DNA of 38,881 nt, taken from Bacteroidia bacterium (GTDB taxonomy: Bacteria; Bacteroidota; Bacteroidia; AKYH767-A; OLB10). Each line of letters opens with the position of its first letter. Within the stretch, counting starts at the first letter, position 1. Positions 14,632-38,881 of this stretch are shown piece by piece. The position numbers were made by a program, and so were the translations under genes. The stretch covers positions 1 to 38,881 of the forward strand of contig JAGOJO010000015.1 of NCBI GenBank assembly GCA_017995075.1, in the 5' to 3' direction. The notes beneath the pieces were generated by a model that saw nothing but the letters and a program-made list of their open reading frames with translations, was not told the DNA's origin and searched no databases.

Positions 14632-14633
14632 TC

Positions 14634-18026: not shown

Positions 18027-18036
18027 GGTTCAGGCC

Positions 18037-18492: not shown

Positions 18493-18494
18493 TT

Positions 18495-19610: not shown

Positions 19611-19664
19611 ATAAAACCGGAAATTGAAAGTACACATTCAGAAAAGTATTGAAAGAAGAATAGT

Positions 19665-20741: not shown

Positions 20742-20759
20742 AAAACGAAATCACGAACG

Positions 20760-22059: not shown

Positions 22060-22089
22060 CAGCGAACGAAGGAAAAACGCCTCGATCCA

Positions 22090-24036
22090 ATGAACCTACC
22101 ACTCGAATTACTCCTTATACCACTGCTTCCCCTCTTCAGCTTTCTGCTGCTGGGAATTTTTGGCAGAAAACACCTCTCCGCCATTTCAGGAATGATTGGC
22201 ACCACCTCTATGCTGGTGTCAGCGCTACTTTCCATTAAAGCCGCCTGGAACTATTTTACCACAACTACCGGTGATGCCTATACTCAAACCGTCGCGTGGA
22301 AAATGACATGGCTCCCATTCAGTGCTGATGTATCCATCGATATTGGATTTTTACTCGACCCGATTTCAGCCATGATGCTGGTAGTAGTAACTGTTGTATC
22401 ACTTATGGTACACCTCTACAGCTTAGGATATATGAAAGGAGATGAGAGGTTCGCCACTTACTATGCCTTTCTTTCGCTCTTTACTTTCAGCATGCTTGGA
22501 CTGGTCGTCAGCGTCAATCTCTTCCAGATCTATATGTTCTGGGAACTCGTTGGTGTGAGTTCATTCCTCCTCATCGGTTATTATTTCACCAAGCCTAGTG
22601 CTGTTGCAGCCTCTAAAAAAGCATTCATAGTTACCCGTTTTGCAGACCTGGGATTTCTTATTGGAATTCTTGCACTCTCCTACCACGGACAAACCCTCGA
22701 CTTCCCTACGCTAATTCAACGATTAACCACTGTTGATTCACCCTGGCTGAATTCTGCCATCACATCTTCCTTCCTCGGAGCAAGTGCATTGACATGGGGA
22801 TTAATGCTGGTGTTCATAGGTGGAGCAGGTAAAAGCGCCATGTTCCCATTGCATATCTGGTTACCGGATGCGATGGAAGGTCCGACACCAGTTTCTGCAC
22901 TCATTCACGCTGCAACGATGGTAGTAGCCGGTGTATATCTTGTCGCACGTTTATTTCCGGTATTTGCTATTTCCTGTCCGGGCGCACTTGAAATTGTTAT
23001 GTGGACAGGAGCAATATCTGCCATCTTCGCAGCACTCATCGCCTGCACACAAACAGATATAAAAAGAGTACTCGCTTACTCTACCATGTCGCAGATCGGA
23101 TATATGATGTTCGCACTGGGACTTGCCGGATACGGTGGAGAGAATGGTCTTGGATATACAGCATCCATGTTTCATCTTTTTACCCATGCGTTCTTCAAAG
23201 CGTTACTCTTCCTCGGAGCCGGAGCTGTCATCCACATGATTCACAGTAATGAGATGAAAGACATGGGTGGACTTCGCAAAGCCATGCCGGTTACTCACCT
23301 CACGTTTCTTATTGCCTGCCTTGCCATAGCCGGAATACCACCGTTCGCCGGATTCTTCAGTAAAGAAGAAATCCTGACAGCAGCCTGGAACAACAACAAA
23401 ACCATTTATTGGCTGGCCTTGATCACAGCGGGAATTACAGCGTTTTACATGTTCCGTTTATACTTCAATATTTTCTGGTCGAAACCTGCAGTTGCACACC
23501 ATCATGATCACGCCGATGACCATGGACATGGAGAAGGCACCTGGAGCATGAAATTGCCGTTGATCCTGTTAAGTCTGGGAGCAATTGGAGCAGGATTCAT
23601 TCCATTCGGCGAATACGTCAGCAGCGACGGACATCCATTGCACTTACCATTCCATCTGAGCTCCGCCATTCTTCCCATAGGCATCGCCGTTAGTGGAATA
23701 TTGCTTGCCTATAGTTTATACTTTAAGGAAAACGAAAAGCCGGATAAAATTGCAACCTCCCTCAATGGCTTGTACACTTCTGCCTACCGCAAATTCTATA
23801 TTGACGAAGTCTATCTCTTCGTCACCAAAAAAGTAATCTTCCAGCTCATCGGACGACCAGCAGCCTGGATCGATCGTAATATCATAGATGGCAGCATGAA
23901 TGGACTTGCCTCGTTGGTAGCCTGGAAAGCAAACCTCATTAAAAATATACAATCCGGAAAAATCCAGGATTACGCACTTTACTTCTTCGCCGGTGTATTC
24001 GGATTAGTCGTACTTGCCTATTACCTTGCCAACTGA
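22090..24036 (+). CDS. nuoL: NADH:quinone oxidoreductase subunit L
   Basis: This 648-residue antiporter-like subunit has full length for the family, including the C-terminal lateral helix region. Core motifs are FWELVGVSSFLLIGYY (membrane Glu), GGAGKSAMFPLHIWLPDAMEGPTPVSALIHAATMV and SMFHLFTHAFFKALLFLGAG (key Lys and His). An unusual His/Asp-rich cytoplasm- or periplasm-facing loop lies near residues 470-485. It is the distal proton-pumping module of the enzyme. Confidence 0.97.
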   Translation: MNLPLELLLIPLLPLFSFLLLGIFGRKHLSAISGMIGTTSMLVSALLSIKAAWNYFTTTTGDAYTQTVAWKMTWLPFSADVSIDIGFLLDPISAMMLVVVTVVSLMVHLYSLGYMKGDERFATYYAFLSLFTFSMLGLVVSVNLFQIYMFWELVGVSSFLLIGYYFTKPSAVAASKKAFIVTRFADLGFLIGILALSYHGQTLDFPTLIQRLTTVDSPWLNSAITSSFLGASALTWGLMLVFIGGAGKSAMFPLHIWLPDAMEGPTPVSALIHAATMVVAGVYLVARLFPVFAISCPGALEIVMWTGAISAIFAALIACTQTDIKRVLAYSTMSQIGYMMFALGLAGYGGENGLGYTASMFHLFTHAFFKALLFLGAGAVIHMIHSNEMKDMGGLRKAMPVTHLTFLIACLAIAGIPPFAGFFSKEEILTAAWNNNKTIYWLALITAGITAFYMFRLYFNIFWSKPAVAHHHDHADDHGHGEGTWSMKLPLILLSLGAIGAGFIPFGEYVSSDGHPLHLPFHLSSAILPIGIAVSGILLAYSLYFKENEKPDKIATSLNGLYTSAYRKFYIDEVYLFVTKKVIFQLIGRPAAWIDRNIIDGSMNGLASLVAWKANLIKNIQSGKIQDYALYFFAGVFGLVVLAYYLAN

Positions 24037-24043
24037 TTCAACC

Positions 24044-25549
24044 ATGAACTTACAGTTACTCATTATAATTCCACTACTCACTGCAATAGCCACACTCTTC
24101 AGTAAAGAGTTGAAAGTAGTACGATGGATTGCCTTCGCCGGATCAGCGGTTCAATTAATACTCAGCTTTGTATTACTCAATGCATTTACTGCAGAAAGGG
24201 CTTCAGGAAATAATCTTCCAATGCTCTTTTACAGTTCATACGAATGGTTTCCACAATTAGGAATTTCTTACTCCACTGGTGTAGATGGTATTTCTATTGC
24301 TATGATTTTACTCTCCGCCTTTGTTGTACTGGCCGGAGTATTGGTATCATGGAACATGCAAAAGCTCTCGCGTGAGTTCTTCTTTTTACTGCTGCTGTTA
24401 AGTGCCGGTGCATATGGGTTCTTCATATCTCTTGATTTATTCGCTTTATTCTTCTTCCTTGAAATTGCTGTAATACCCAAATTCCTCCTGATTGGTGTTT
24501 GGGGCAGCGGGAAAAAAGAATACAGTGCTATGAAACTTGCACTCATGCTCATGGCCGGATCAGCATTTGTATTTCTCGGATTGCTGGGCATCTATTTCGG
24601 AGGCGCAGACACTGCAGGCAATCACACGTTTGATTTACTTAGTATTGCCAGTCATCCACTTCCTCATGATGTACAAATGCTCTTCTTCCCCATCACCTTC
24701 ATCGGATTTGGAATATTCGGAGCGTTATTTCCATTTCACACATGGGTACCAGACGGACATAGTTCAGCACCAACTGCTGCATCCATGTTCCTGGCCGGTA
24801 TCAGCATGAAATTAGGAGGATACGGTTGTTTACGTGTTGCCACTTACCTGATGCCCGAAGCAGCACATGAATATGCTCCGTATATAATATTACTGTCAGC
24901 AATCGCCATTATTTACGGTGCATTTGCTACGATGATGCAGACAGATCTCAAATACATCAATGCATACTCCTCTGTAAGTCACTGCGGATTTGTATTGCTC
25001 GGGATTGGAATGCTCAATGAAACAGCCATCAACGGAGCGGTCATGCAAATGATTTCTCACGGACTCATGACAGCCCTCTTCTTCGCAGCCATTGGAATGA
25101 TCTACGAACGAACTCATACGCGATTGGTTGCACAGCTTGGAGGATTGCTGAAAGTAATGCCGTTTATCTCCTCCATCTTCGTTATTGCCGGCTTATGCTC
25201 ACTCGGCTTACCCGGATTCAGCGGATTCGTCAGCGAAATGACCATCTTCATGGGATCCTGGCAACATGCTGAAACATCTTACCGCATTGCCACCATTGCC
25301 TCTTGCGCCAGCATCGTAGTAACGGCTGTGTATATACTAAGAGCGGCAGGAAAAACCATTATGGGACCTGTCAGCGACGAACACCATCTACAGCTCAGCG
25401 ACGCCACCTGGCATGAAAAACTTGCGGCCACCTTATTACTCTCCGGAATAGTAATCATAGGCATTGCTCCATTCTGGCTCAACACACTCATCACACCGGG
25501 TGTACAAAGTCTCATGATCAACATCGGACAACCATTACTGATTCCTTAA
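24044..25549 (+). CDS. nuoM: NADH:quinone oxidoreductase subunit M
   Basis: This 501-residue antiporter-like subunit shows FFFLEIAVIPKFLLIGVWG, ALFPFHTWVPDGHSSAPTAASMFLAG and MISHGLMTALFFAAIGM, each with the conserved membrane Glu, Lys or His. I chose ATG 24044, 7 bp after the nuoL stop, over a TTG at 24014 that would overlap nuoL and add ten polar residues before the first helix. Confidence 0.95.
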   Translation: MNLQLLIIIPLLTAIATLFSKELKVVRWIAFAGSAVQLILSFVLLNAFTAERASGNNLPMLFYSSYEWFPQLGISYSTGVDGISIAMILLSAFVVLAGVLVSWNMQKLSREFFFLLLLLSAGAYGFFISLDLFALFFFLEIAVIPKFLLIGVWGSGKKEYSAMKLALMLMAGSAFVFLGLLGIYFGGADTAGNHTFDLLSIASHPLPHDVQMLFFPITFIGFGIFGALFPFHTWVPDGHSSAPTAASMFLAGISMKLGGYGCLRVATYLMPEAAHEYAPYIILLSAIAIIYGAFATMMQTDLKYINAYSSVSHCGFVLLGIGMLNETAINGAVMQMISHGLMTALFFAAIGMIYERTHTRLVAQLGGLLKVMPFISSIFVIAGLCSLGLPGFSGFVSEMTIFMGSWQHAETSYRIATIASCASIVVTAVYILRAAGKTIMGPVSDEHHLQLSDATWHEKLAATLLLSGIVIIGIAPFWLNTLITPGVQSLMINIGQPLLIP

Positions 25550-25558
25550 GACCTGACT

Positions 25559-26971
25559 ATGCTAAGTGAATTTCTCTTATTGATGAAACAGGAATTGCTG
25601 CTCTGCTGCATTCTATTCATCACCCTTATACTCAAAATTGCCGAAAACAAGGACAGCAAAGGTCAATGGGCCAGTATTGTCAATGTAATGCTTGCGCTTA
25701 ACCTGATTGCCGGATTCATCGGAAACACAACCGGTGAACTTTTTAATGGTTTATACCAGGTAAACGATCTCATGATTTTAGAAAAGAACATGCTCAACCT
25801 CGGCTTACTCATCGTATCACTGATGGCGCATCCCTGCATTAAAACACACCGACATTTACCGGAGTTCTATATGCTCATGATCAGTACTATCATCGGTATG
25901 TTCTTTATGATTTCATCCGGACATCTCTTATTATTCTATCTGGGACTCGAGCTTTCAACTATTCCAATGGCAGCACTAGCCAATTTCAACCTCAACAAAA
26001 GCAGTTCATCAGAAGCGGGTATGAAAATGATCTTAAGTTCTGCCTTCAGTTCCGCTTTACTGCTCATGGGTATTTCGCTGATTTATGGAACAACAGGTAG
26101 TTTATCCTTTGACGGAATCAAACCGATGCTCGATGGAAACATGATGCAGATATTTGCATTCATACTTCTTTTTACAGGATTCGCCTTCAAGCTGTCGGTT
26201 GTACCATTTCACTTCTGGACAGCCGATGTTTACGAAGGAGCACCCGTACCGGTAGCAGCGTATCTGAGTGTTGTCAGCAAAGCCGCAGTAGCATTTGTAT
26301 TTGTGAGTGTATTGTACAGTGTATTTGGCGGCATGTATGAACTCTGGTACACCCTGATCTTCCTTACAGCGGTATTAACAATAGGCATCGGAAATTTATT
26401 TGCATTGAGACAAGAAAACATTAAACGATTCCTCGCCTTTTCATCCATTGCACAGGTTGGATTTATTTTAATCGGAATTTCCGGAGGAAGCCAGGAAGGT
26501 TCTGCATCGGTTGTTTACTTCCTGCTCATTTATTTATTCAGCAATTTAGGAGCCTTCAGCGTTGTGAACATAGTTAGTGCATTAAGTGGTAAAGAGAAAA
26601 TTGACGACTATAAAGGACTCTATAAAACGAATCCGGGACTTAGCTGGATACTCACCATTTCCCTGTTCTCTCTTGCCGGCGTACCACCCACTGCAGGATT
26701 CTTTGGAAAACTATTTCTGTTAACCAGTGGTGCAGGTGCAGGCAATTATATTCTCATTGGTTATGCTGCTATCAATATGGTGATCAGCATGTACTACTAT
26801 TTACGCATCGTTAAAGCCATCTTCATGGACGAAAACGAACATCCTGTACCGTCTATCAGTGCAGGCTTTATCCCGGGTATAGCAATGATTATTTGTCTCG
26901 CCGGTATTCTGTTGACCGGGTTTTCCGGAAGCCTCTATACTTACATTCATCAACTCAGCAACGGCATCTAA
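25559..26971 (+). CDS. nuoN: NADH:quinone oxidoreductase subunit N
   Basis: This 470-residue antiporter-like subunit has FYLGLELSTIPMAALANF (membrane Glu), FKLSVVPFHFWTADVYEGAPVPVAAYLSVVSKAA and the later KRFLAFSSIAQVGF segment. It starts 9 bp after nuoM and is the last recognisable complex I gene in the run. The small unknown gene downstream begins 12 bp later. Confidence 0.96.
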   Translation: MLSEFLLLMKQELLLCCILFITLILKIAENKDSKGQWASIVNVMLALNLIAGFIGNTTGELFNGLYQVNDLMILEKNMLNLGLLIVSLMAHPCIKTHRHLPEFYMLMISTIIGMFFMISSGHLLLFYLGLELSTIPMAALANFNLNKSSSSEAGMKMILSSAFSSALLLMGISLIYGTTGSLSFDGIKPMLDGNMMQIFAFILLFTGFAFKLSVVPFHFWTADVYEGAPVPVAAYLSVVSKAAVAFVFVSVLYSVFGGMYELWYTLIFLTAVLTIGIGNLFALRQENIKRFLAFSSIAQVGFILIGISGGSQEGSASVVYFLLIYLFSNLGAFSVVNIVSALSGKEKIDDYKGLYKTNPGLSWILTISLFSLAGVPPTAGFFGKLFLLTSGAGAGNYILIGYAAINMVISMYYYLRIVKAIFMDENEHPVPSISAGFIPGIAMIICLAGILLTGFSGSLYTYIHQLSNGI

Positions 26972-26983
26972 GAAGGATACAAA

Positions 26984-27364
26984 ATGGCCATCAATAAAAA
27001 CCACGAATTCGAAGATTTGGACGGCACTAAATGCTGCATAGTTGAAAAAGCAGTAAGTCGTGAACGTGCTAACTTTTTAAAATCGCTACTTGAAGGAAAT
27101 GGCTACACAGTAGTTGTTAGCGGTATTGTACCCAAAGCAGCTCCTGCTCCAGCTCCTGTAGAAGGAGAAGAGCCGGCACCTCCTGCACCACCGGCTGCAC
27201 CTACCCAATTTACTGTTGGAGTAACCGATATGACCTATAATACGATCAACGCTATCTACGGTAGATTTTTACGAACACGAGATGGAAATGTAGTAACAAT
27301 GGCTTACTGGACAGGAAATGATCCGCAGGCGGAAGATGTACCGTATTTTGAATTCAAGAAATAA
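26984..27364 (+). CDS. Unknown small protein at the end of the nuo operon
   Basis: I do not recognise this 126-residue soluble protein. Residues 1-48 form an alpha/beta-looking segment with ANFLKSLLEGNGYTVVVSG, faintly like DUF2007-type putative signal-transducing domains (a weak analogy only). Residues about 50-75 are a Pro/Ala/Glu linker. Residues 76-126 form a second small domain ending YFEFKK. It has no signal peptide or membrane helix. It begins 12 bp after nuoN behind a clear AGAAGGA ribosome binding site, unusual for this phylum, so strong co-translation with the complex I genes is likely. Confidence 0.75.
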   Translation: MAINKNHEFEDLDGTKCCIVEKAVSRERANFLKSLLEGNGYTVVVSGIVPKAAPAPAPVEGEEPAPPAPPAAPTQFTVGVTDMTYNTINAIYGRFLRTRDGNVVTMAYWTGNDPQAEDVPYFEFKK

Positions 27365-27983: not shown

Positions 27984-30431
27984 CTAGAAGCTAATATTTG
28001 TACTGAATTTTACTACAATGTTATCCTCCGCAGAAGTTCCCGCATATGGGCCGTAACGATAGAATACACCCAAACCAATTCCTGAAAATGCGGACTTCAT
28101 CAGTTGATCAATAACCAATCCGGATTCGAAAAATCCTTCCTTCGCTTGCCGACCTATAATTGTGTGCGAAGCAGGATTCTCGAGGTCACCCCAACACATA
28201 TTCTGAACAACACTCAACAATGGCCGGAATTTCCCGGATTTGAATAACAAGTCCTTGAAGGAATGACGAAGATGAACCTGAACGAAACGACTATGAATAA
28301 ACTCGTTGGTTCGCATCGTTTCGAATGTATATGGTGCTGCTAATCCAAGATAACGATCGTGATCATATGAATTAGTATTTGTTCCTTGTGCATTATAATT
28401 CATGTGAGCCGGTAGATTATTCGGGATCCAGCCACCGGTTACACGAACAGTAAAGTCTCCAGTCAATGCCATTCGAAAAGTTTTTTCCATCTCAGCATCT
28501 AACCGTTGGAAGGATGAACGTTCATTAGAAATATCAGTCTGGCCCATCGTATATCTAAGAAAGAACAATGGCCACCTACTTCCAAGACTCACCTCACGAT
28601 CTCCCATAAGAGCAAGTTTTTCTCCTGGAGCCCATCGCAGACCAACACCTGCTTCATAAAAACTGAAATCACGAACCAGAACGCTTATTTGTTCACTTTT
28701 AGGAACCATAAACCGATAATCGGATACGGTTGAAACAGTTTGATAGTTTGCAAAAAGCAACGATGATAGATTTCCAATGAGTCGCCCATTCAGACGCAAC
28801 TCCATTTTTTCAACTTCGTCCATTGCACTGATAAAGATCGGATAAAAATTATTGGACAATAATCCATTTTTCCGCAAGGAAATTATATTCCCACCGGTTT
28901 CTTTTACATCCTGCTCATAACTAAACTGAATCCATGCATTTCGTTTACGATACAAATGGAACAACAGATCACCACCGTATTTATGCCCCCGATCTTTGAA
29001 TCCATAAGCATAATATCCACCCAATGAAAAAACCCTGGATAAGAAATCATTCGTATGTAAACCGGCACCTAATCGCAAGCCCTCAAAATCGTTTGCACGA
29101 ATAAATCTGTCAATATCCCAACTAACCTTTCCCATTGGTATTTTACCTGTAGCAAGAATATTTATGATCTTCAATTTTTGCTCAAAATTCTCGGCCTTTC
29201 CAACACTATCAAGATAAGCATAGGTTGAAGCTTCCTTTACATCGAGTGAATGCTGACGATACGTATTCCAGAGTGAATCCGGAACATCAGCTGCTTTAGG
29301 ATCCATCCTTAAAGTTACAGGACCAAAACTGCCTCTCTTCAATTGAGCATTCAATTCCAAATCCCGAATATACGAACGACTTACACCTACAATATTGACT
29401 CCATTCACTGACATATTCGGAAAAGAGAGGAAAGAATTTAATTGTTCGGGAAACCATGTTGTATTATACCTTGCATATTGTTGTTGAATTTTTATCTGTA
29501 CACTACTACCGGTATCTGCAGGAGAAGCAATAATATTCTGAACGGCCCATCCATTTGAATTAATTGTTAGAGATCCCTTGAGGCCATTAAAATTCTTTCC
29601 CTTACGTGGATGGAAGGAAATAGTATATAAAGTATCTGCTCCGATTAAAGTACTATCTTCCAGATGAAAAAAGTATCTGGAAACTGCAGATCCGGATATT
29701 GGGCTCAGGTAAGAAATATCCAGAACCATTAAATTATCCTCATAAACAGAAAAAGATTGTAGCTGTGTCCCCAACAAGGCAAATGGAGCAGCTTTAAATC
29801 CTGAAACACGAGAAGCAAGAATTACCTCCTCATCTTTGCCCGGAGGAAGATGACGTCGTTGAGTAGCACTCTCCATCATGAACAAATGTTTCTCCTTAAA
29901 AAATGCTCTCATTTTTATAGATGTCGAATCCAGCGAATTGGCAGCCGACGACGCTTCCAATTCAGTTGAATCCGGATCGCCCATGATGATAAGTTTATTA
30001 TAGCTATTATAAATAAATGCGACAGACTTTTCAGGATTATTTTTATCCTTCCATCGAATCACTTTCCGCATAATTCTTTCAGCAGGATTTTCACCGGCAG
30101 TAATTATTGCAGACTTCAATTCACGAACAAGAGGTGTCAAACGGACTTCCCATAGAGAAGAACCATTCCACACTAATTTCTCCGCATTAAAACCAACATA
30201 TGAAAAATTTACGAGCGATTCTTTACCGGACAGATCGAGTGAAAAATAGCCATCTATATCCGTGAAAGTACCATTTTGTGTTCCGTCTTGCATTACAGTA
30301 ACAAACGCCAGTGGCTCAGAGGTGATGGAGTTAAAAATCCGACCTTTTACTTTATTCTGTGCAAACCCGGAAAAATGAAAAACAACGGAGATAAGAATCG
30401 ATAATAGGGTATATTTAGTAACCGCTTTCAT
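27984..30431 (-). CDS. DUF5686/carboxypeptidase-regulatory-like outer-membrane beta-barrel protein
   Basis: This 815-residue protein has a signal peptide (cut near GFA-Q). A carboxypeptidase-regulatory-like beta-sandwich follows (about 27-115: VKGRIFNSITSEPLAFVTV, then GTFTDIDGYFSLDL), as at the front of TonB-dependent SusC-like proteins. Next comes the DUF5686 region with its ENPAERIMRKVI...NNP motif. The C-terminal half has alternating aromatic/polar strands ending in Phe (KFSTNISF), typical of an outer-membrane barrel. No plug domain is evident. Substrate and role of DUF5686 proteins are not established. It may be cotranscribed with the 203-residue gene 74 bp upstream. Confidence 0.85.
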   Translation of the reverse strand: MKAVTKYTLLSILISVVFHFSGFAQNKVKGRIFNSITSEPLAFVTVMQDGTQNGTFTDIDGYFSLDLSGKESLVNFSYVGFNAEKLVWNGSSLWEVRLTPLVRELKSAIITAGENPAERIMRKVIRWKDKNNPEKSVAFIYNSYNKLIIMGDPDSTELEASSAANSLDSTSIKMRAFFKEKHLFMMESATQRRHLPPGKDEEVILASRVSGFKAAPFALLGTQLQSFSVYEDNLMVLDISYLSPISGSAVSRYFFHLEDSTLIGADTLYTISFHPRKGKNFNGLKGSLTINSNGWAVQNIIASPADTGSSVQIKIQQQYARYNTTWFPEQLNSFLSFPNMSVNGVNIVGVSRSYIRDLELNAQLKRGSFGPVTLRMDPKAADVPDSLWNTYRQHSLDVKEASTYAYLDSVGKAENFEQKLKIINILATGKIPMGKVSWDIDRFIRANDFEGLRLGAGLHTNDFLSRVFSLGGYYAYGFKDRGHKYGGDLLFHLYRKRNAWIQFSYEQDVKETGGNIISLRKNGLLSNNFYPIFISAMDEVEKMELRLNGRLIGNLSSLLFANYQTVSTVSDYRFMVPKSEQISVLVRDFSFYEAGVGLRWAPGEKLALMGDREVSLGSRWPLFFLRYTMGQTDISNERSSFQRLDAEMEKTFRMALTGDFTVRVTGGWIPNNLPAHMNYNAQGTNTNSYDHDRYLGLAAPYTFETMRTNEFIHSRFVQVHLRHSFKDLLFKSGKFRPLLSVVQNMCWGDLENPASHTIIGRQAKEGFFESGLVIDQLMKSAFSGIGLGVFYRYGPYAGTSAEDNIVVKFSTNISF

Positions 30432-30505
30432 ATTTCTACAATTAACGCTGTTTTCTTCTTTAACAAGAGAATATCCAATTCGTTTGGTTCATCAGAAATT
30501 ATTCT

Positions 30506-31117
30506 TCACTTCCATAGACCCCATAATGATTTCCAGCCTGATTTTTTTTGCTTTTCAATAAATTCAGCCTGCTCTTTTCGAACAAGATCAAAATGCGCGC
30601 GAAGGGGAAGATTTATTTTGGTGGATGCCATTACCCATTCATCTTCCGAATACTGTGAGAATTCATGAAAAAGTTGTAAAAACTGACGTACTTCCATTTC
30701 CACATCTTTAACATCGCCGAAAGTTTTGCTTTTAGCCAACTGGAGCTTATCATCTAAACCGGAAATGATATATTTTTCTTCAGTAGAAAGCGGAGAGTGT
30801 CGCGCCAGCCAATCGAGCACCTGGGTCACTTTCTCTAAACGAAGACTACCAACTTCCAAATGCCGGTATAAATTACCCATAACAATGCGCGCTGATACCA
30901 AAGGCTTTGTATACCCCACTTTTTGATCTAACAAGGTGATTAAATCGTTGACATTTCTACTCTCAGATAAAGAAAGTTCAGACAGCCATGCTGATTGTTC
31001 AGTTGAATTTTTCAATTCATTGTCGGCCCATAGAATCATATCCTCCCTGCATGGTAGTCCGTTTATCAACGAAATGCGAAAAACGTCAGCAATCAGAATC
31101 AATGATTTTTTCTCCAA
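30506..31117 (-). CDS. Unrecognised 203-residue helical protein
   Basis: This soluble, helix-rich protein has no recognised domain, signal peptide or membrane segment. A Trp/Lys-rich tail (KKSGWKSLWGLWK) could contact a membrane. The start is uncertain: TTG 31117 comes directly after an in-frame TGA, another in-frame TTG lies at 31102, and the first ATG is 31039. The gene sits between the PLP enzyme and the DUF5686 barrel gene, all on the minus strand. I saw no perfect -7 box upstream. Its length and clean frame argue for a real gene, but I cannot assign a function. Confidence 0.65.
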   Translation of the reverse strand: MEKKSLILIADVFRISLINGLPCREDMILWADNELKNSTEQSAWLSELSLSESRNVNDLITLLDQKVGYTKPLVSARIVMGNLYRHLEVGSLRLEKVTQVLDWLARHSPLSTEEKYIISGLDDKLQLAKSKTFGDVKDVEMEVRQFLQLFHEFSQYSEDEWVMASTKINLPLRAHFDLVRKEQAEFIEKQKKSGWKSLWGLWK

Positions 31118-31257
31118 TCAGTTTAATTGCGTTGTCGGGACGGCTATTCAGACAGGGGCAGCATTCCCGGGTGAAACCAGTTCCAATAATAGGAAATTAT
31201 TTTCATACCGGAAATAGCAAAAAGGATCAGAAAAAATTAAACGGAATGCAGAGGCTA

Positions 31258-32508
31258 TCAGACTTTATCCAGCGCCTGTTGTATGTCATAAATGATATCT
31301 TCAAAATGCTCCACACCTACCGATAACCTGATCATCCTTTCGGTGATATTCAACTCTTTCCTTAAACTCTCCTCTACGTCGGCGTGTGTCATTGTTGCAG
31401 GGTGCTCTGCCAGGCTTTCCGTACTTCCGAGACTTACTGCAAGTTTGATCATCTTCAACGAATCAAGAAACCTAAATGCCTCTGCTTCGGAATGCAACAC
31501 ATCGAAGGATATCATTCCACCGTTCGAAAGGCATTGCCTCTGACGTACTGCGAATTGTTCACCATCTGCCTCCGTGAGATTCCCGGGGAAATATACTCTT
31601 CCGATTTTAGGATGTGCATTAAGAAATTCAGCTACCTTGTTTGCATTAAAAGCCTGAATATCCATTCGTGCCTTTAAAGTTTCCAGGCTTCGCATCAACA
31701 ACCAGCCTGTATTCGGGCTTGCCATGTTACCCAGAAAAGTACGTAATCCCCTAACTCGATGCATCATCTCATGGGAACCTAATACAGCTCCTGCGATTAC
31801 ATCACTATGCCCTCCGATATACTTTGTAGCCGAATACAGAACTATATCTGCTCCGTGTTTCAAGGGGTGCTGCCATAAGGGTCCCATATAGGTATTGTCT
31901 ACCACGAGAGGAACTAATTTAGAATCCGAAGAAAAGTATTCAGCTATACTCTTTGATGCACGGATATCAATCAAATCATTTGTTGGATTAGCAGGTGTTT
32001 CAATATATACTAGAGCCAGATCATTGGCATGACCGGATGCATTCACCATTTCAATAATTTTCTCCTTTGTATCTCCTACTTTAAACGAAACAACATGAAT
32101 ACCGAACTTCGGAAGTATTTTCCGAATGAAATGGTCAGTACCTCCATACAGCGGATTACTAGTCAACAAAACATCTCCAGGCTTCAAATACTCGAGCAAA
32201 ACGGTAGTAATGGCAGCCATCCCACTCTCGAAAACGGCGCATTCTTCCGCTTGATCCCAAAGTGTCAGACGGTTCTCCAAAATCTCAAGATCAGGATTAT
32301 TCAGCCGACTATAAATCAAACCCAACTTTTCATGTTTTCGTTGTGCCCGCAGACCATAAGCTACTTCAAAGAAATCTTTTCCAGCTTGTGCATTTTTAAA
32401 TACAAAGGTAGATGTCTGAAAAATTGGACATTTAATTGCTCCTTCTGATAATCCAGGTTTATAACCATAAGACATCATCAGACTTTCCGGTTTCATTTTA
32501 TGTTCCAT
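31258..32508 (-). CDS. PLP-dependent Cys/Met-metabolism enzyme (cystathionine gamma-synthase/lyase family)
   Basis: This 416-residue fold-type I enzyme carries the PLP Lys229 in YSATKYIGGHSD, Asp204 (VVDNTYMGPLWQHPL) for the pyridine nitrogen, YSRLNNPDLEILE for phosphate binding and the C-terminal SLGSTESLAEHPATMTH. Family members are cystathionine gamma-synthase, cystathionine gamma-lyase, methionine gamma-lyase and O-acetylhomoserine sulfhydrylase. Canonical methionine gamma-lyases have Cys after the active-site Tyr-Gly; here it is NPLYGGT, so that assignment is not favoured. It has its own promoter and an inverted repeat in its leader. The reduced-sulfur operon lies directly upstream, a thematic link by inference. 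Confidence 0.88.
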   Translation of the reverse strand: MEHKMKPESLMMSYGYKPGLSEGAIKCPIFQTSTFVFKNAQAGKDFFEVAYGLRAQRKHEKLGLIYSRLNNPDLEILENRLTLWDQAEECAVFESGMAAITTVLLEYLKPGDVLLTSNPLYGGTDHFIRKILPKFGIHVVSFKVGDTKEKIIEMVNASGHANDLALVYIETPANPTNDLIDIRASKSIAEYFSSDSKLVPLVVDNTYMGPLWQHPLKHGADIVLYSATKYIGGHSDVIAGAVLGSHEMMHRVRGLRTFLGNMASPNTGWLLMRSLETLKARMDIQAFNANKVAEFLNAHPKIGRVYFPGNLTEADGEQFAVRQRQCLSNGGMISFDVLHSEAEAFRFLDSLKMIKLAVSLGSTESLAEHPATMTHADVEESLRKELNITERMIRLSVGVEHFEDIIYDIQQALDKV

Positions 32509-32530
32509 ATTTCATCTGTTAAAGTAGTCT

Positions 32531-32548
32531 AATTCCAGAGTTGGAATT
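32531..32548. promoter_or_regulatory. Inverted repeat in the leader of the PLP-enzyme gene
   Basis: AATTCCA-GAGT-TGGAATT is a perfect 7-bp inverted repeat with a 4-nt spacer. It begins within a few bases of the predicted transcription start and ends 22 bp before the ATG at 32508. It could be a repressor operator or a 5' mRNA hairpin. Confidence 0.45.
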
Positions 32549-32556
32549 ATCCTTTA

Positions 32557-32564
32557 CAAATCTA
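32557..32564 (-). promoter_or_regulatory. -7 promoter box for the PLP-enzyme gene
   Basis: The minus strand reads TAGATTTG, a perfect TAnnTTTG match, with a TTTC about 20 nt further upstream as a possible -33 element. Transcription would start near 32552, giving a leader of about 45 nt that includes the inverted repeat. Confidence 0.5.
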
Positions 32565-32647
32565 CAGGTCTTCCCTTGAAATATGACTGAGAAAGATCAT
32601 GTTAAATATGATTCTATCACAATCACGAAAAAACAAGACAAACCGGA

Positions 32648-32827
32648 TTACTTCTTCCGAAACATATCACCCAGCAATGCACCCATCATAGCACCATAAA
32701 GTGTACTATTTAATGGTCTTGAAGTTATCATGCATGTTCCGGAAGCACAACCTACTTTTAACCAGTAAAGATATCCTGCTATAGCTCCCAGCAACAAACC
32801 AACAAATAAAAATTTATACTTCATCAT
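32648..32827 (-). CDS. DUF6132 family small membrane protein
   Basis: This 59-residue protein has an N-terminal membrane helix (KFLFVGLLLGAIAGYLYWL). The conserved GCASGTCMITSRPLNSTLYGAMMGALLG segment has two Cys, the DUF6132 hallmark. I chose the ATG at 32827, 4 bp after the porin stop, over a TTG at 32848 that would overlap it; the next codon is also ATG. It is the last gene of the five-gene sulfur-related operon. Function is unknown; the paired Cys could bind metal or sulfur (inference). Confidence 0.8.
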   Translation of the reverse strand: MMKYKFLFVGLLLGAIAGYLYWLKVGCASGTCMITSRPLNSTLYGAMMGALLGDMFRKK

Positions 32828-32831
32828 TTTC

Positions 32832-34217
32832 TTAGAATGTGTAATCAATCACCAGATTCCAGTTAAACATATTGACTTTATTAAACACATATTTATACTC
32901 TCCATATGTTTTTCCAACGCGTTTTTTATACGCAACCAACCAGAAAGCCTGCAATCCTTTCAATTTACCAGCAAATGCATAACGCACTTCAGCATTTACC
33001 TGAGCAAAAGAAGGCATTCCATATTTGTTGTGTTTAAAATCCTTCACATCCGGCATATCGAAATAACCTGCAGCAAGAGAAGGTTTCCACTTTCCGTTTT
33101 TACTTTTGCCAGACCATTTAGCAACCATTGCCTTTACACCTGCTGCACCCTCAGTTCTCTCACGGGGCATGAATGTATAAAATGGTTCACGCCCCCACTC
33201 ACGCGGCATCAGGAAACGATCATCCTTACTGAACTGCGTGTAATTCAAAGTCCATTCGGATTTACCATCGGACAATCCCAGTCGTGTACTAAACACATAA
33301 CTTTGGCTTCCCTTTCTGATATAAGCACGAGCCGGGTCGGGATGTCCACCATTCGCTATTGCATCCTGACGAATAATCATTACTCCAGCCAACACTTTCT
33401 TCGAACCTTTCAACTTCAGCGAGATATCGGATTGCAGCATAGCAGTGTTAAACACATTTTCAGCAAACTGATTCCACACCTGAATTTTTACATTTTCGGA
33501 TGTACGCACTGTTAGACCTGCCAGTGCAGTGCCAATTGATTGTACATTCCCTGCGTAGTCCGATTTTTTTCCTTCCTCATTCACTCCGCCGGCATACACA
33601 CCATATGAATCCTCCATTCTATACCAATCAATCGTTGATCTGGGAGAAATCTTCCAAAGCCAGCCACCCTCCAATTTAATATTGGCCAATTGATTTACTT
33701 CTGCCCAAACACCTTCCTCGATAGTGCCTCTCATGCGACCGTCTTGTCTGTTTATAAACGGAGTATTGATCTCAAAGCGTCCAAGTTCAATTTTCGACTT
33801 ACCATAGTTATATCGAATGAATAAATCTTCGAGGCGATCCAGGTCCATTTTATTATCCGGACGGTTTATATCAAACAAACCAATTTCGTAACGATTCATT
33901 CCCTTCGAAAGCGGATCTGCCAACCCTAAATCTGATGACACCAGATTAAATATGAAGAATCCAGTAAAGCCCGCCTGAAACCCATGAAACTTAGGCGTTT
34001 CATAACTCAAGCCCGCACCAAAAGCCAGTGCATAGGCGTCCTTCAATCGGACATCGTTATCAGTAGCCATGAAAAAACTGCGAAGATGAGCCTTAAAAAC
34101 TCCCTTCGACACAGCGGAAGATTCACTACTATCTGTAACCTGCGAAAATGATGGCCGAATTATTAACCCATTCAACAATAAGAACAGTATTAGAATCCTG
34201 CCTTTAAATATGTCCAT
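32832..34217 (-). CDS. OprD-like outer-membrane porin
   Basis: This 461-residue protein has a signal peptide (cut near SFS-Q) followed by RSFFMATDN and many amphipathic strands with aromatic ends, finishing in NLVIDYTF with a C-terminal Phe. The pattern LKDAYALAFGAGLSYETPKFHGFQAG fits OprD-type porins, which admit small organic acids and amino acids. Its ATG overlaps the DsrE-like gene by 28 bp, within a coupled operon. It may admit the substrate of the periplasmic sulfur enzymes encoded upstream (inference). Confidence 0.75.
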   Translation of the reverse strand: MDIFKGRILILFLLLNGLIIRPSFSQVTDSSESSAVSKGVFKAHLRSFFMATDNDVRLKDAYALAFGAGLSYETPKFHGFQAGFTGFFIFNLVSSDLGLADPLSKGMNRYEIGLFDINRPDNKMDLDRLEDLFIRYNYGKSKIELGRFEINTPFINRQDGRMRGTIEEGVWAEVNQLANIKLEGGWLWKISPRSTIDWYRMEDSYGVYAGGVNEEGKKSDYAGNVQSIGTALAGLTVRTSENVKIQVWNQFAENVFNTAMLQSDISLKLKGSKKVLAGVMIIRQDAIANGGHPDPARAYIRKGSQSYVFSTRLGLSDGKSEWTLNYTQFSKDDRFLMPREWGREPFYTFMPRERTEGAAGVKAMVAKWSGKSKNGKWKPSLAAGYFDMPDVKDFKHNKYGMPSFAQVNAEVRYAFAGKLKGLQAFWLVAYKKRVGKTYGEYKYVFNKVNMFNWNLVIDYTF

Positions 34218-34606
34218 CCCTGTTCTTGTTTTGTAATCACCTCCACCAATCCGAACTTCACAAATTCAAGTCCGGCTAACAGCTGATCTTTCGCAATTGC
34301 TTTTTGCTTCAATGTATTTTCACATATCACGAAATGAATTCCGGCAGCCTTTAATTTTTGAATAGCTTCCGTCTGCGTTGCCTTCTCTGTCATAAAACAC
34401 TCCACTCCCGGACCATGTGCCAACACTTCGATCACCACACTATCACCCCAGGCTTCTTTTAAAGCGGTCAGTTGATTCATTAACCCTTTATGTGCAGCCG
34501 GATCATTTTGTGTTAATTGCATAATCACTTTATGCTTCGGATCAGATTGTGCGGAGACAAATCCTGCTGATAATATCAACAGGAAGAGAAAGACGATTTT
34601 TTTCAT
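34190..34606 (-). CDS. Periplasmic DsrE-like protein
   Basis: This 138-residue protein has a signal peptide (cut near VSA-Q) and a DsrE/DsrF-like fold: KVIMQLTQND, VVIEVLAHGPGVECFM, then GIHFVICENTLKQK and GLVEVITKQEQGWTYLKAGF. Cys70 and Cys95 are candidates for sulfane-sulfur handling. Cytoplasmic DsrE proteins relay sulfur; the signal peptide puts this one in the periplasm with the SoxB- and TsdA-like enzymes. It overlaps the cytochrome gene by 4 bp (ATGA). Confidence 0.85.
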   Translation of the reverse strand: MKKIVFLFLLILSAGFVSAQSDPKHKVIMQLTQNDPAAHKGLMNQLTALKEAWGDSVVIEVLAHGPGVECFMTEKATQTEAIQKLKAAGIHFVICENTLKQKAIAKDQLLAGLEFVKFGLVEVITKQEQGWTYLKAGF

Positions 34607-35706
34607 GATGGTTTATTTACAGATTTCTTCTTTTCTTCTTCTGCCTTCTTTTTACGGGCATCTATTCCCTTTTTAATTTCAGCGAAAGGACCGAACTTAT
34701 GTTGTTTTTCAGAGAAAGAATCACCGAACGGTCCGAACGGATGATCAAAAGGTTTCTTTGTATAATCCGGCCAGTCTTTCGAAAGATCCTTCTTCGGACG
34801 AGGTTGTGAATTCACAAAAGCAGCAAGATCCCAGGCTTCCTCGTCAGAGAGCTGAGGGTTTTCACTGGAGGCACCTAGCGGCATATTCGCCTTCACATAT
34901 CCGGCAAAACGGCTCAGGCGAAATAGTCCGGCACCGTGATTATAACTATTATCGCCCCATAAAGGAGGATAAGTATATGCGGTCGCATCCGCATTCGGTA
35001 ATCCCTCACCGTTAGCTCCGTGACAAGACTTACACTTCAGTTCGAAAACCACCTTTCCTTTTTCAGGATCAGCAGCACGATCGAGGAACGGTAATTCCAC
35101 AAGACCAACACCTTTCGGCGACTCTCCCTTCGGCACATCTTTACCAAGCCATTTGATATACGCCACAATCGCCTTCATCTCCTTACTATCAACAGCAGGA
35201 GCAACACCATTCAGGCTACGCTCAAAACAATCACTCACCCTTTTCTCAATCGACTCTTCAGAGCCTGAACGCGCCCTGAATTTCGGATAGGTAGAAGCCA
35301 CCGCGCTATAGTTATTACCAAAAGGTTTAGTTCCTGCATCGAGATGACAGTTCTGACAATTCATGCCATTACTCAAATGCCCTACTGAGCCTTTAGGACC
35401 AAGAAAAAGGGAAGTATTCGCAATAAGTTCACGACCATACTTTACCTCAGCCGGAACGGCATCATCCATCACCGGAGCATTCCAAAAATCCGCTTTCTTC
35501 TCCACCTTGACAGTCGCTGTATTTTTGTCTGCACTCTCTGCCGGTTTATCTGAAAAAAACTTCATTTCATTCAGATCGGTCATAGTATACAACAGCACCA
35601 CCACAATCATCGCCACAAACAACGTAACAACAATCACAAGTGACCGAACCGCTTTCTGCAGTGCATCGTGCAGATCCTTCTGTGGAAGATTATTATCTGA
35701 ACTCAT
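34603..35706 (-). CDS. TsdA-like membrane-anchored dihaem cytochrome c
   Basis: This 367-residue protein has a membrane anchor (about 20-40) and two haem c sites, Cys117-Cys120-His121 (CQNCH) and Cys225-Cys228-His229 (CKSCH). Between them, YPKFRARSGSEESIEKRVSDCFERSLNG closely follows thiosulfate dehydrogenase TsdA, in which the Cys (here Cys160) is the distal ligand of the catalytic haem. Met275 may ligate the second haem. TsdA interconverts thiosulfate and tetrathionate. The Lys/Pro-rich C-terminal tail is extra. Its start overlaps the SoxB-like gene by 14 bp. A related activity on another thiol or sulfane substrate is possible. Confidence 0.82.
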   Translation of the reverse strand: MSSDNNLPQKDLHDALQKAVRSLVIVVTLFVAMIVVVLLYTMTDLNEMKFFSDKPAESADKNTATVKVEKKADFWNAPVMDDAVPAEVKYGRELIANTSLFLGPKGSVGHLSNGMNCQNCHLDAGTKPFGNNYSAVASTYPKFRARSGSEESIEKRVSDCFERSLNGVAPAVDSKEMKAIVAYIKWLGKDVPKGESPKGVGLVELPFLDRAADPEKGKVVFELKCKSCHGANGEGLPNADATAYTYPPLWGDNSYNHGAGLFRLSRFAGYVKANMPLGASSENPQLSDEEAWDLAAFVNSQPRPKKDLSKDWPDYTKKPFDHPFGPFGDSFSEKQHKFGPFAEIKKGIDARKKKAEEEKKKSVNKPS

Positions 35707-37414
35707 AAGTAGTACCTTGTAATTGAGTTAATAATGTTGCTGGAAAATCGGTAGCAATAGCACGACCTTCCAGTTTAGGAGCGACAGTTTTTTTCGCCGC
35801 CAGGTATTCCTCAATCACACTATGCATCAGCAATCCGGTACGCATTGGTGACTTCACTTTCTCCATCCGACAAATTGTATCATCCGGATCTCCCTCTCTC
35901 TCACAAGCAACAATCCGATACTCTTTCAGCTTATCCAGTGGCTTACCTTTTATCACAACCGAGTTCACCCGCTTTCCAAATTCATTGTTAATGGTAAAAT
36001 TCACCTGCATACCGGCATACCGCACAAACCATCCACCGAAACGCTTCGAAGGATCCTTCGCAAACGCATTCTGCAATTCTTTCTCCAGCCAATCGAGAAT
36101 TTGCTGACCGGTCACTACTCCCATTTTCGCCTCACTATTCACCGGAAGCATATTCCACAAAAACTCCTTCGTTATCGCCACCTTTCCCGAAGAAGCCTCC
36201 ACATTCAATGGTTGACAAAAACGGAAACCGTTACTCAAAGCAACATCCGGTTTAAACTTCCACATGATCGCATCCGTCAATAAATTATCCATCGGTGTTT
36301 CCAACACAAAATACCTAACCAGAGGAGTAGACGAATAACCGATTACCTTCTTCAACTCCTCATCAAAAGGACGAGCAGCAGTATGAATCATTTCCACCAA
36401 CTCCGGATCCGGAGGATAGATTTCAGGATCTACATCCAATAAATCGTATTGATAATTTTTTAGTTTTCCATCGGCCACTTCCAATTCGAGTTTACCCAGG
36501 AAAGAACCAAAAGCACCGCACTCCACCACCTTTGTATACTTACACTCAATAGGCACACGAACTCTTTCATGCGTATCGGCACCCAAAATAAAATCGACAC
36601 CCGTACACACCGGATTATTTGCCAGACCTACCTGCTGAGCAAGTCCCATATGAGTTACCAGCATCACCAGATGACAAGCTTCATACTCGCGCAGGTACTT
36701 CACATACTTTGCGACAGTTTTATCTGCATGATCGAAACGAATTCCCTCACTATAAGCCGGCGACTGCCGTTTTGGAATCAGGTGATCAGTATATCCGATG
36801 AAACCAATTTTTACGCCACCAACAATTTTAATCCAGTAAGGCTGATAGATTAAATCACCATTGTATTCATCATTGGAATTATGCCACATATTTGCGCAAA
36901 TTTTCGCCGCAGAGCTATGTCCAAGATCATACAACATCTTCTTCTTCTTATACACCACCTCCCAGTTTCCCGGAAGAAGCAAATCATAATTGAAAGCGTT
37001 CAGCAATGGAATCAGCGCCTCCCCTTCAGTCAAGGAAGCAACAGCATGACCATGATAATAGTCTCCGCCATCGATTAAAAGAGTTTGCTCAGGAGCTTTC
37101 CGACGAAAACTCTCCACCATTGTTTTTAAAACCGCCAATCCCCCGCGCTTTTTATAAACCGCCTTTCCATTCTCCCAAAAGAACTCATCGTGCGTATGCA
37201 ATTGCGCATGAATATCGGAAGTATATAGCAGGGTCACTTTTCCATTTCCCAAGGGTAAGGAAGGTGAGAGAGGTTCAGGATCGGTATTAACCACCGGAGC
37301 AGAAATTGCGCTTTGCAGAGGAGCCAAACCGGCCGCCATTCCCAGCAACGCAGAACGCTTCAGGAAATCACGTCGGGAAGACGCGGTAACAACTTCATTT
37401 ATTTTCTTCTTCAT
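35693..37414 (-). CDS. SoxB-like thiosulfohydrolase / 5'-nucleotidase-family metallohydrolase
   Basis: This 573-residue protein has a Tat signal (SRRDFLKRSALLGMAAG, about 13-29), so it is exported folded. The dimetal core shows Asp67 and His69 (SDIHAQL), Asp118 (DGGDYYHG), Asn150 (GNWE), a HMGLAQQ His and GADTHER. The GNWE and HMGLAQQVGLA forms are those of SoxB, which hydrolyses the sulfone from SoxYZ-bound S-sulfocysteine; nucleotidases usually have GNHE. The C-terminal domain (about 355-560) fits the 5'-nucleotidase C-terminal fold. It is the first gene of the operon with its own promoter. No SoxYZ is in the window, so the substrate is uncertain. Confidence 0.85.
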   Translation of the reverse strand: MKKKINEVVTASSRRDFLKRSALLGMAAGLAPLQSAISAPVVNTDPEPLSPSLPLGNGKVTLLYTSDIHAQLHTHDEFFWENGKAVYKKRGGLAVLKTMVESFRRKAPEQTLLIDGGDYYHGHAVASLTEGEALIPLLNAFNYDLLLPGNWEVVYKKKKMLYDLGHSSAAKICANMWHNSNDEYNGDLIYQPYWIKIVGGVKIGFIGYTDHLIPKRQSPAYSEGIRFDHADKTVAKYVKYLREYEACHLVMLVTHMGLAQQVGLANNPVCTGVDFILGADTHERVRVPIECKYTKVVECGAFGSFLGKLELEVADGKLKNYQYDLLDVDPEIYPPDPELVEMIHTAARPFDEELKKVIGYSSTPLVRYFVLETPMDNLLTDAIMWKFKPDVALSNGFRFCQPLNVEASSGKVAITKEFLWNMLPVNSEAKMGVVTGQQILDWLEKELQNAFAKDPSKRFGGWFVRYAGMQVNFTINNEFGKRVNSVVIKGKPLDKLKEYRIVACEREGDPDDTICRMEKVKSPMRTGLLMHSVIEEYLAAKKTVAPKLEGRAIATDFPATLLTQLQGTTYEFR

Positions 37415-37514
37415 AGTTCAGGTTTCAAGACAGTACTTTGCTGATAAAACTACTAAATTCTTTGCTTTTCCCATCTGCCTCACCTAACAGATTCCCCCGG
37501 ATTTAACCGGCATA

Positions 37515-37522
37515 CAAAATTA
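37515..37522 (-). promoter_or_regulatory. -7 promoter box of the sulfur operon
   Basis: The minus strand reads TAATTTTG, a perfect TAnnTTTG match, with a TTG 24 nt upstream (37549-37547) as a loose -33 candidate. Transcription would start near 37510, leaving a leader of about 95 nt before the SoxB-like gene. Confidence 0.45.
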
Positions 37523-37638
37523 GAACCCCAATAGGCGCATTCTTAGCAACTTTTGTTACATCCATCGATGAAACTCCTGAACATATTTTTACAAACGCTT
37601 ATTAACGGTTAACGTGACCGGTATCCATCATGAAGCAA

Positions 37639-37646
37639 TATATTTG
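37639..37646 (+). promoter_or_regulatory. -7 promoter box that fixes the exonuclease start
   Basis: TATATTTG is a perfect -7 match and lies 16 bp before the ATG at 37662. It falls inside the extension that would be coded if translation began at the GTG at 37614, which argues for the ATG. Confidence 0.5.
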
Positions 37647-37661
37647 CAAAAACAAACAACT

Positions 37662-38399
37662 ATGTTACAACAACTCCCTTTAGAAAACATCCTTTGCCTC
37701 GACATTGAAACTGTACCACAGTATCCTGATTTTGATTCAACGCCTGAAGAATTACGCAAGCTTTGGCTCCGGAAAGCCTCCAACCTGAAAAAAAGCGAAG
37801 ATGAAACGGAAGAAGGCATCTACTCCCGAGCAGGCATTTATGCAGAATTCGGAAAAATCATCTGCATCAGCACCGGGTTTTTAGTGATCAAAGACGGACA
37901 GCGAAGTTTCCGGTTAAAATCATTTTATGGCGATGATGAAAAAGAACTATTAACGGAGTTTGGAGCGCTATTACAACAGATCCATGATACACGACAGAAA
38001 GGCGGAAAACAGAGCATGGTACTCTGTGGACACAATGCCAAGGAATTTGATTTTCCCTACATCAGCCGACGTATGATCATTCACGGAATAGCCTTACCAC
38101 CACAACTCGATCTCTTCGGAAAAAAGCCCTGGGAAGTACCTCATATTGACACCATGGAGCTTTGGAAATTTGGGGACTATAAAAGCTTCACTCCACTCAA
38201 TCTACTAGCCTATATATTGGGGATACCAAGTCCGAAAGACGATATTGACGGATCACAGGTAGGAAATGTATACTGGCAGGAAAAGAATCTGGAGAGGATA
38301 GTTACCTATTGTCAGAAGGATGTAGTTACCGTTATGCAGATATTACTTCGACTAAAAAACGAATCATTACTCCAGACGGAAGAAGTAATAATACCCTGA
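37662..38399 (+). CDS. PolB-type 3'-5' exonuclease (predicted DEDDy nuclease)
   Basis: This 245-residue protein resembles the exonuclease domain of family B DNA polymerases standing alone. It keeps the DEDDy signature: Asp14 and Glu16 (CLDIETV), Asp130 (GHNAKEFDFPYISRR) and Tyr216-Asp220 (YCQKDVVTVMQI). It should remove 3' nucleotides from DNA in repair or primer maturation. I chose ATG 37662 because a perfect -7 promoter box lies inside the longer GTG-started frame (37614) and the added residues look non-conserved. It is divergent from the sulfur operon. Confidence 0.88.
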   Translation: MLQQLPLENILCLDIETVPQYPDFDSTPEELRKLWLRKASNLKKSEDETEEGIYSRAGIYAEFGKIICISTGFLVIKDGQRSFRLKSFYGDDEKELLTEFGALLQQIHDTRQKGGKQSMVLCGHNAKEFDFPYISRRMIIHGIALPPQLDLFGKKPWEVPHIDTMELWKFGDYKSFTPLNLLAYILGIPSPKDDIDGSQVGNVYWQEKNLERIVTYCQKDVVTVMQILLRLKNESLLQTEEVIIP

Positions 38400-38497
38400 T
38401 TCACCCAATGAAAATGCCCATTCATCACTAAAACAATGCTTTTTTTGCATATTAAAATGTAATTTCTTTCCTTAGTAGGTGGAAATACCGTCACTGG

Positions 38498-38505
38498 TAA
38501 TTCTG
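38498..38505 (+). promoter_or_regulatory. Weak -7 candidate before the last gene
   Basis: TAATTCTG matches TAnnTTTG at 7 of 8 positions, with TTAG 22 nt upstream. It would give a leader of about 20 nt before the ATG at 38533. Confidence 0.3.
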
Positions 38506-38532
38506 GTCTACACCCTAACCAAAACCTACACC

Positions 38533-38881
38533 ATGAAAAAACTTTTACTTCTATCCTTGCTCTTATTCAGGGCTTTCATTGCCACATCTCAAATAATCCA
38601 GACACCCACACAAAGGGATTATTGCACCCTTCAAGCGGTTTCCTTCTCTTACACTAACCCACCACCCACCGGAAGCCACTACGAATGGATGTATGAAGAC
38701 TATACGATGGGCTGGAGCTTAAACGGACCAAACAATACCACCCAATTTATACTACCATCCTTCCAGATTTACACCGGTACGATAGGCGGTGTATGCATGG
38801 TAAGGCTATTAACTATTGATGATCTGACAGGGCAAATCATTTATTCAGATAGCCGAGCAATAGTTTCCAGCAAACCAGTAT
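38533..38881 (+). CDS. Secreted protein, N-terminal part only (cut by the window edge)
   Basis: The frame is open from ATG 38533 to the end, 116 codons. It begins with a signal peptide (MKKLLLLSLLLFRAFIATS-Q). The following residues (YCTLQAVSFSYTNPPPTGSHYEWMYED and on) have the Tyr/Trp-rich beta pattern of the Ig/PKD-like surface proteins of this phylum. Given the other T9SS substrates nearby, a sorting domain in the missing C-terminus is plausible but unseen. Confidence 0.7.
   Translation, partial: MKKLLLLSLLLFRAFIATSQIIQTPTQRDYCTLQAVSFSYTNPPPTGSHYEWMYEDYTMGWSLNGPNNTTQFILPSFQIYTGTIGGVCMVRLLTIDDLTGQIIYSDSRAIVSSKPV

Follow-up and report, generated by a model that had tools for sequence, protein, structure and literature searches.

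A conserved SoxYZ-free sulfur module in Bacteroidota with a proposed role in thiosulfate oxidation via tetrathionate

What would a bacterium do with an exported SoxB-like hydrolase and a TsdA-type cytochrome when no SoxYZ carrier is encoded beside them? The question is raised by five minus-strand genes at positions 32648–37414 of the window, by which we mean the whole stretch of DNA analyzed here (38,881 nucleotides; contig JAGOJO010000015.1 of the Bacteroidia bacterium assembly GCA_017995075.1). Specifically, a SoxB-like metallo-hydrolase (35693–37414, 573 aa) bearing the Tat signal SRRDFLK and a 5_nucleotid_C domain is followed by a TsdA-type dihaem cytochrome c (34603–35706, 367 aa), an exported DsrE-family protein (34190–34606, 138 aa), an OprD-like outer-membrane porin (32832–34217, 461 aa) and a small DUF6132 membrane protein (32648–32827, 59 aa). 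The first four genes overlap in succession (14, 4 and 28 bp), a 4-bp gap precedes the fifth, and on the basis of this tight packing the five form, by layout, one transcription unit. An earlier, sequence-only reading of this DNA had assigned the genes these places, this strand and these family names; all five are present as described, and domain, model and structure searches agree with the assignments.

The same reading had placed a promoter candidate ahead of the operon, which did not hold up, as consensus scans stayed at chance level. The upstream region contains 19 sigma-70-like sites versus 16.1 +/- 3.6 in shuffled sequences, and thus no excess; the full Bacteroidetes promoter pattern TTTG-N19-21-TANNTTTG was not found upstream of the soxB-like gene, and the Bacteroidetes -7 box TAATTTTG was not enriched. 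One possible copy of this box (37515–37522, minus strand), about 100 bp upstream of the soxB-like gene, is weak and at the level expected by chance. No Rfam element was detected in 30000–38881. With respect to the downstream boundary, a cystathionine/methionine gamma-lyase-like gene (31258–32508) was excluded from the set, as it lies 139 bp off and occurs near the hydrolase in only 2 of 80 related loci.

The smaller members of the operon were assigned through Pfam, with the DsrE protein matching PF02635 (E 1e-7), the porin PF03573 (E 2e-9) and the DUF6132 protein PF19628 (E 5e-7, over the cut-off); the DsrE protein and the porin are both predicted to carry sec-type signals. The cytochrome contains SoxA-TsdA_cyt-c and Cytochrom_C domains together with a single predicted N-terminal membrane anchor, and its best solved relative in the PDB is TsdA (4wqc, E 2e-46), with no SoxA among its PDB matches. 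Both CxxCH haem sites are kept in 74/74 relatives. Moreover, Cys160, within the motif DCFERSLNG, is invariant in the alignment of relatives and aligns with the cysteine that in TsdA is the axial ligand of haem 1. Taken together, these observations place the cytochrome with TsdA rather than outside it.

To what extent the genes belong together was assessed in a scan of species genomes, in which 413 sequences came up as candidate hydrolase relatives. The best 80 of these were examined together with as much as 10 kb of flanking sequence per side, and essentially all are labelled Bacteroidota or are uncultured bacteria grouping with them; in 43 loci the flanks reach 8 kb or more in both directions, and these are referred to here as full-flank loci. 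TsdA lies near the hydrolase in 42/43 full-flank loci, a CstB-like MBL-rhodanese and TauE in 37/43 each, the two halves of a split YeeE/YedE in 30/43 and 28/43, rhodanese in 26/43, OprD in 24/43, DsrE in 23/43, a CRP-type regulator in 21/43 and an SQR-like gene in 6/43. The names of these neighbor families are backed by Pfam searches on representatives, and the best solved relatives of the MBL-rhodanese, matched from end to end, are 3tp9 and 3r2u, the latter of which we take to be staphylococcal CstB. DUF6132 is found near the hydrolase in just 6/80 related loci (2/43 full-flank loci), which makes it an occasional partner. Because this gene combination is found again and again across Bacteroidota, the set is more than a chance grouping, and these near-constant sulfur-gene partners bear out the proposal of a reduced-sulfur module. 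Consistent with this, TsdA was present in 11/11 genomes with the hydrolase versus 7/89 without it (Fisher 2e-10, computed over 100 relatives whose kinship makes them not independent).

Several of the recurrent partners are missing from the operon itself and are found elsewhere in the window genome. A run on contig C116 reads CRP–TauE–MBL-rhodanese–UspA–YeeEa–YeeEb–MBL-rhodanese–rhodanese–SQR, and its genes are mostly 56–74% identical to those of the conserved set (45% for UspA). In relatives such as L021, L025 and L050 both halves form a single gene run. The window operon therefore holds only half of a conserved sulfur module, the half destined for the periplasm and outer membrane, and there is strong evidence that the two halves are one module split in the window genome, although this is an 80%-complete metagenome-assembled genome in 176 contigs with the halves on different contigs.

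The absence of SoxYZ, on which the sequence-only reading depended, extends beyond the window. No SoxY was found in the window genome or in 40 hydrolase-bearing genomes, and no SoxZ in the window genome or nine relatives. SoxY was detected in 36/296 genomes of the phylum, and SoxZ in both control genomes of the phylum, indicating that these searches work in Bacteroidota. Neither of the outcomes that the sequence-only reading had named as refuting it, a usual soxYZ pathway elsewhere in the genome or a phylogeny with the hydrolase among nucleotidases and the cytochrome outside TsdA, was observed.

We assign a probability of roughly 60% to the reading that the operon is half of a SoxYZ-independent module for thiosulfate oxidation via tetrathionate. 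From the observed gene content, its conservation and co-occurrence, the half on C116, the absence of SoxYZ, and the clade and fold of the hydrolase, we infer the following reactions and their order. The OprD-like porin would let the anion through the outer membrane, and membrane-anchored TsdA would convert two thiosulfate to tetrathionate, passing electrons to the respiratory chain. From tetrathionate, or from a sulfane sulfonate derived from it, the exported SoxB-like hydrolase could then release a terminal sulfonate as sulfate. Leftover sulfane sulfur would be caught by exported DsrE and rhodaneses and brought in through the split YeeE/YedE channel, after which the CstB-like persulfide dioxygenase–rhodaneses may oxidize it to sulfite, with TauE serving in sulfite export.

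The same neighborhood could instead be taken to describe a module that mainly reduces or detoxifies, in which TsdA reduces tetrathionate, the dioxygenase, rhodanese and TauE dispose of sulfane sulfur, and no energy is gained from oxidizing thiosulfate. Such a role is in keeping with the CstB-type enzymes of staphylococci, which act as sulfide-stress proteins, and with the SQR-like gene beside the C116 half. Some TsdA enzymes are also described as bifunctional (PMC7608252). Nonetheless, we regard this alternative as unlikely, as the near-constant pairing of TsdA with a dedicated SoxB-like enzyme (42/43 loci) suits oxidation better, and an O2-dependent dioxygenase paired with a sulfite exporter likewise suggests oxidation.

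A second issue is the part played by the exported DsrE protein, which had been proposed as a periplasmic carrier in place of SoxYZ. A profile for exported DsrE was run on the 20 full-flank genomes without a local copy and recovered one elsewhere in the genome in 13/20 (E < 1e-30), so that, local and distant copies together, 36/43 full-flank hydrolase genomes contain it. It was found in 0/30 near-complete genomes lacking both the hydrolase and TsdA, and in 3/7 genomes that have TsdA and lack the hydrolase. This co-distribution (36/43 versus 0/30) indicates that DsrE belongs to the system. However, the profile search found no exported DsrE in six genomes with both the hydrolase and TsdA, which are 92–99% complete and two of which are of the window's genus; DsrE is thus an accessory rather than an obligatory carrier. 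In its strict form the carrier claim is left unsupported by these six genomes, each at least 92% complete, and DsrE is better described as a frequent sulfane handler than as a required stand-in for SoxYZ. Persulfide carriage would fit its invariant Cys95.

A related possibility is covalent carriage proper, in which TsdA, a SoxA homologue, or a similar step would load thiosulfate on Cys95 of DsrE, and the SoxB-like enzyme would hydrolyze DsrE-S-S-SO3 much as SoxB hydrolyzes SoxY-S-S-SO3. The invariant cysteine, the distribution of exported DsrE across hydrolase genomes and the absence of SoxYZ are all compatible with this scheme. It is nevertheless quite improbable in our estimation, given the six DsrE-free genomes and the three in which DsrE accompanies TsdA without the hydrolase. 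The SoxY motif, moreover, is a GG-Cys-GG swinging arm, and the DsrE sequence has no such element.

The reading of the operon as half of a thiosulfate oxidation module also depends on the nature of the hydrolase, which had been open to reassignment among the nucleotidases. The protein contains a 5_nucleotid_C domain (Pfam, E 5e-19), scores above the cut-off of a Tat-signal model, and matches the thiosulfohydrolase SoxB model TIGR04486 with 259 bits (E 5e-77), which falls far short of the curated cut-off of 550 and far exceeds its score with all nucleotidase models. In phylogenetic trees it falls in a fully supported Bacteroidota clade (100/100) outside the canonical SoxB clade. Canonical SoxB, a clade of 'short' SoxB-like proteins and the window clade are together split from UshA-type nucleotidases at 100/98–99; a sister relationship of the window and short clades received weak support in two tree builds (81/61 and 52/34) and was not relied on. 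Where nucleotidases read GNHE, with the catalytic His, all 79/79 full-length members of the window clade read GNWE, and Trp at this position is common to SoxB (HWE) and all SoxB-likes. The SNGFRF loop of the window clade is also SoxB-like, and the nucleotidase loop differs.

An AlphaFold model of the hydrolase (pLDDT 84, pTM 0.83) gave Thermus thermophilus SoxB (2wdc/4uwq) as its first structural matches, with E from 9e-42 to 8e-40 versus 2e-38 for the best nucleotidase, a gap small enough that the fold by itself would not decide. That the protein is an exported 5'-nucleotidase or phosphatase that neighbors tsdA by accident, as its 5_nucleotid_C domain and shared fold superfamily might suggest, is highly improbable in view of its nearly invariant sulfur-gene neighbors, and a nucleotidase identity was rejected on motif, tree and model scores.

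Within the SoxB-like group, the window clade differs at positions presumed, from known family structures, to bind metal. It reads G-[AGN]-D-T-H-E at the position of SoxB GHTHD, and Asn150 and Asp280 occupy two presumed metal-site His positions of SoxB and are invariant in 40 aligned sequences. Identity to canonical SoxB is 26–27%, and at most 30% to any SoxB-like protein found outside the clade. This low identity and the altered metal-site residues suggest that the substrate may differ. A bolder extension, which we put forward only tentatively and consider doubtful, is that the Bacteroidota clade could be a thiosulfonate hydrolase of a new kind, with a distinct set of metal-site residues (Asn/Asp for the His of SoxB) and with either free polythionate or a sulfane sulfonate loaded by TsdA on DsrE as its substrate, such that a DsrE/TsdA relay would replace SoxYZ/SoxAX in part of the phylum.

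Part of the significance of the module lies in its mobility and scale. The Runella plasmid pRUNSL04 contains much or all of it, and a Hymenobacter NBH84 plasmid much or all of the set with a short-type hydrolase, so that a single replicon can hold much or all of the module. Pontibacter Paks1 has the hydrolase and TsdA along with two paralogues. Alphaproteobacterial plasmids carry short-type hydrolases with YeeE/YedE, TauE and MBL-fold genes, and on a Bradyrhizobium plasmid the short-type hydrolase is followed by two cytochromes, one with a SoxA-TsdA domain. Surveys keyed to SoxYZ or to SoxB above the model cut-off would score module-bearing Bacteroidota as non-oxidizers, and the species-genome scan gave 413 candidate hydrolase relatives. 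Cultured carriers in Daejeonella, Flavihumibacter, Lacihabitans and Runella open SoxYZ-free thiosulfate oxidation to direct testing.

Compared with the canonical Sox pathway (SoxXAYZBCD), the module shares a Tat-exported hydrolase of the SoxB fold in which Trp, as in the HWE motif, takes the place of the nucleotidase His. The differences are the absence of SoxYZ, a hydrolase only 26–27% identical to SoxB and below its model cut-off, and the exchange of metal-site His residues (HWE to NWE, and GHTH to G-[AGN]-D-T-H). The cytochrome shares with Allochromatium vinosum TsdA (4wqc) two CxxCH haems, the DCFERSLNG Cys ligand and a matching catalytic region, and differs in its membrane-anchored N-terminus, its C-terminal tail and its near-constant SoxB-like partner in the surveyed loci. 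The short SoxB-likes (Novosphingobium pSA3, Bradyrhizobium pBbPL7HG1 and the Hymenobacter plasmid) likewise stand near YeeE/YedE, TauE, MBL-fold, DsrE or TsdA-type cytochrome genes. They are, however, about 480 aa long and 29–30% identical to the window hydrolase, have HTHN and HW[ED] motifs, and begin right at the catalytic domain, with neither the annotated nor the called start giving an export signal.

The closest parallel is found in the marine bacterium Erythrobacter flavus 21-3, with its TsdA–SoxB–SdoA/B pathway (Zhang et al. 2020, PMC7608252; 2022, PMC9426585). In this strain, which is without Sox carriers, deletion of tsdA halts thiosulfate use, deletion of soxB leaves tetrathionate with zero-valent sulfur absent from the medium, and the sulfur is oxidized by a dioxygenase with rhodanese; the support for tetrathionate hydrolysis by SoxB comes from mutants and stoichiometry (PMC7608252). 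The same source, applying a 40% identity rule, includes Bacteroidetes in its list of genomes in which homologues of tsdA and soxB occur, and as the window clade reaches at most 30%, it probably falls outside that 2020 list. TsdA with SoxB and no other Sox genes has likewise been proposed in a sediment survey (PMC12345210), and YeeE-like SoxT proteins of Hyphomicrobium have been linked to sulfur import or signaling (PMC11582611).

The idea of a SoxYZ-free TsdA/SoxB route is thus not new, given the E. flavus scheme and its mention of Bacteroidetes, and the description of the locus as uncharacterized stands only in part: such a pathway has been demonstrated genetically in E. flavus and predicted for Bacteroidetes (PMC7608252), while our search of the open-access literature found no paper on this Bacteroidota gene set. 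Likened by gene content, the window genome has the components of the E. flavus-type pathway, namely tsdA and a soxB-like gene, no soxYZ, and an MBL-rhodanese. The two systems share TsdA and a SoxB-like protein in one cluster, the lack of SoxYZ, SoxAX and SoxCD, and an MBL sulfur dioxygenase with rhodanese; the Bacteroidota module adds a recurrent OprD porin, exported DsrE, split YeeE/YedE, TauE and CRP. Overall, the Bacteroidota module is a real, conserved variant of a known pathway, with an activity predicted from its genes.

Among the relatives of the window's Tat-exported 573-aa SoxB-like hydrolase, a second clade of short SoxB-like proteins (~480 aa) is encoded at loci L109 (9995-11437), L110 (9989-11434), L113 (8052-9488) and L058 (ORF L058_18), with YeeE/YedE, TauE or TsdA as neighbours. 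No export signal was found in this clade, as judged at the annotated or called start, and a cytoplasmic location for a SoxB-like enzyme would be unexpected. A haloarchaeal relative carrying a GNWD motif (L131, 2932-4716, Halorussus halophilus plasmid) is adjoined by TauE and an MBL-fold gene, which hints at a similar gene set in Archaea.

Within the window, the operon ends 139 bp before a cystathionine gamma-synthase/methionine gamma-lyase family gene (31258-32508, minus strand; NF005455, score above cut-off), which is nearby in only 2 of 80 related loci (best 80 of 413 relatives). A plus-strand Complex I operon (17490-27364) contains NuoD-, NuoL-, NuoM- and NuoN-like genes by Pfam, and none of its ORFs is of NuoEFG size. 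In a same-genus genome, YeeE, SoxB-like and TsdA genes lie ~300 bp from a nuo-like run. The gene at 11957-13873 (plus strand) encodes a TPR protein that also has a class III adenylate/guanylate cyclase domain; adjoining it, at 13879-16826, are genes for a histidine kinase with TPRs and a LytTR regulator.

On Pontibacter akesuensis plasmid Paks1, which also bears conjugation genes, TsdA is clustered with three paralogues of the nucleotidase family (L137, 3601-10530); the Erythrobacter flavus cluster likewise contains three SoxB-like genes.
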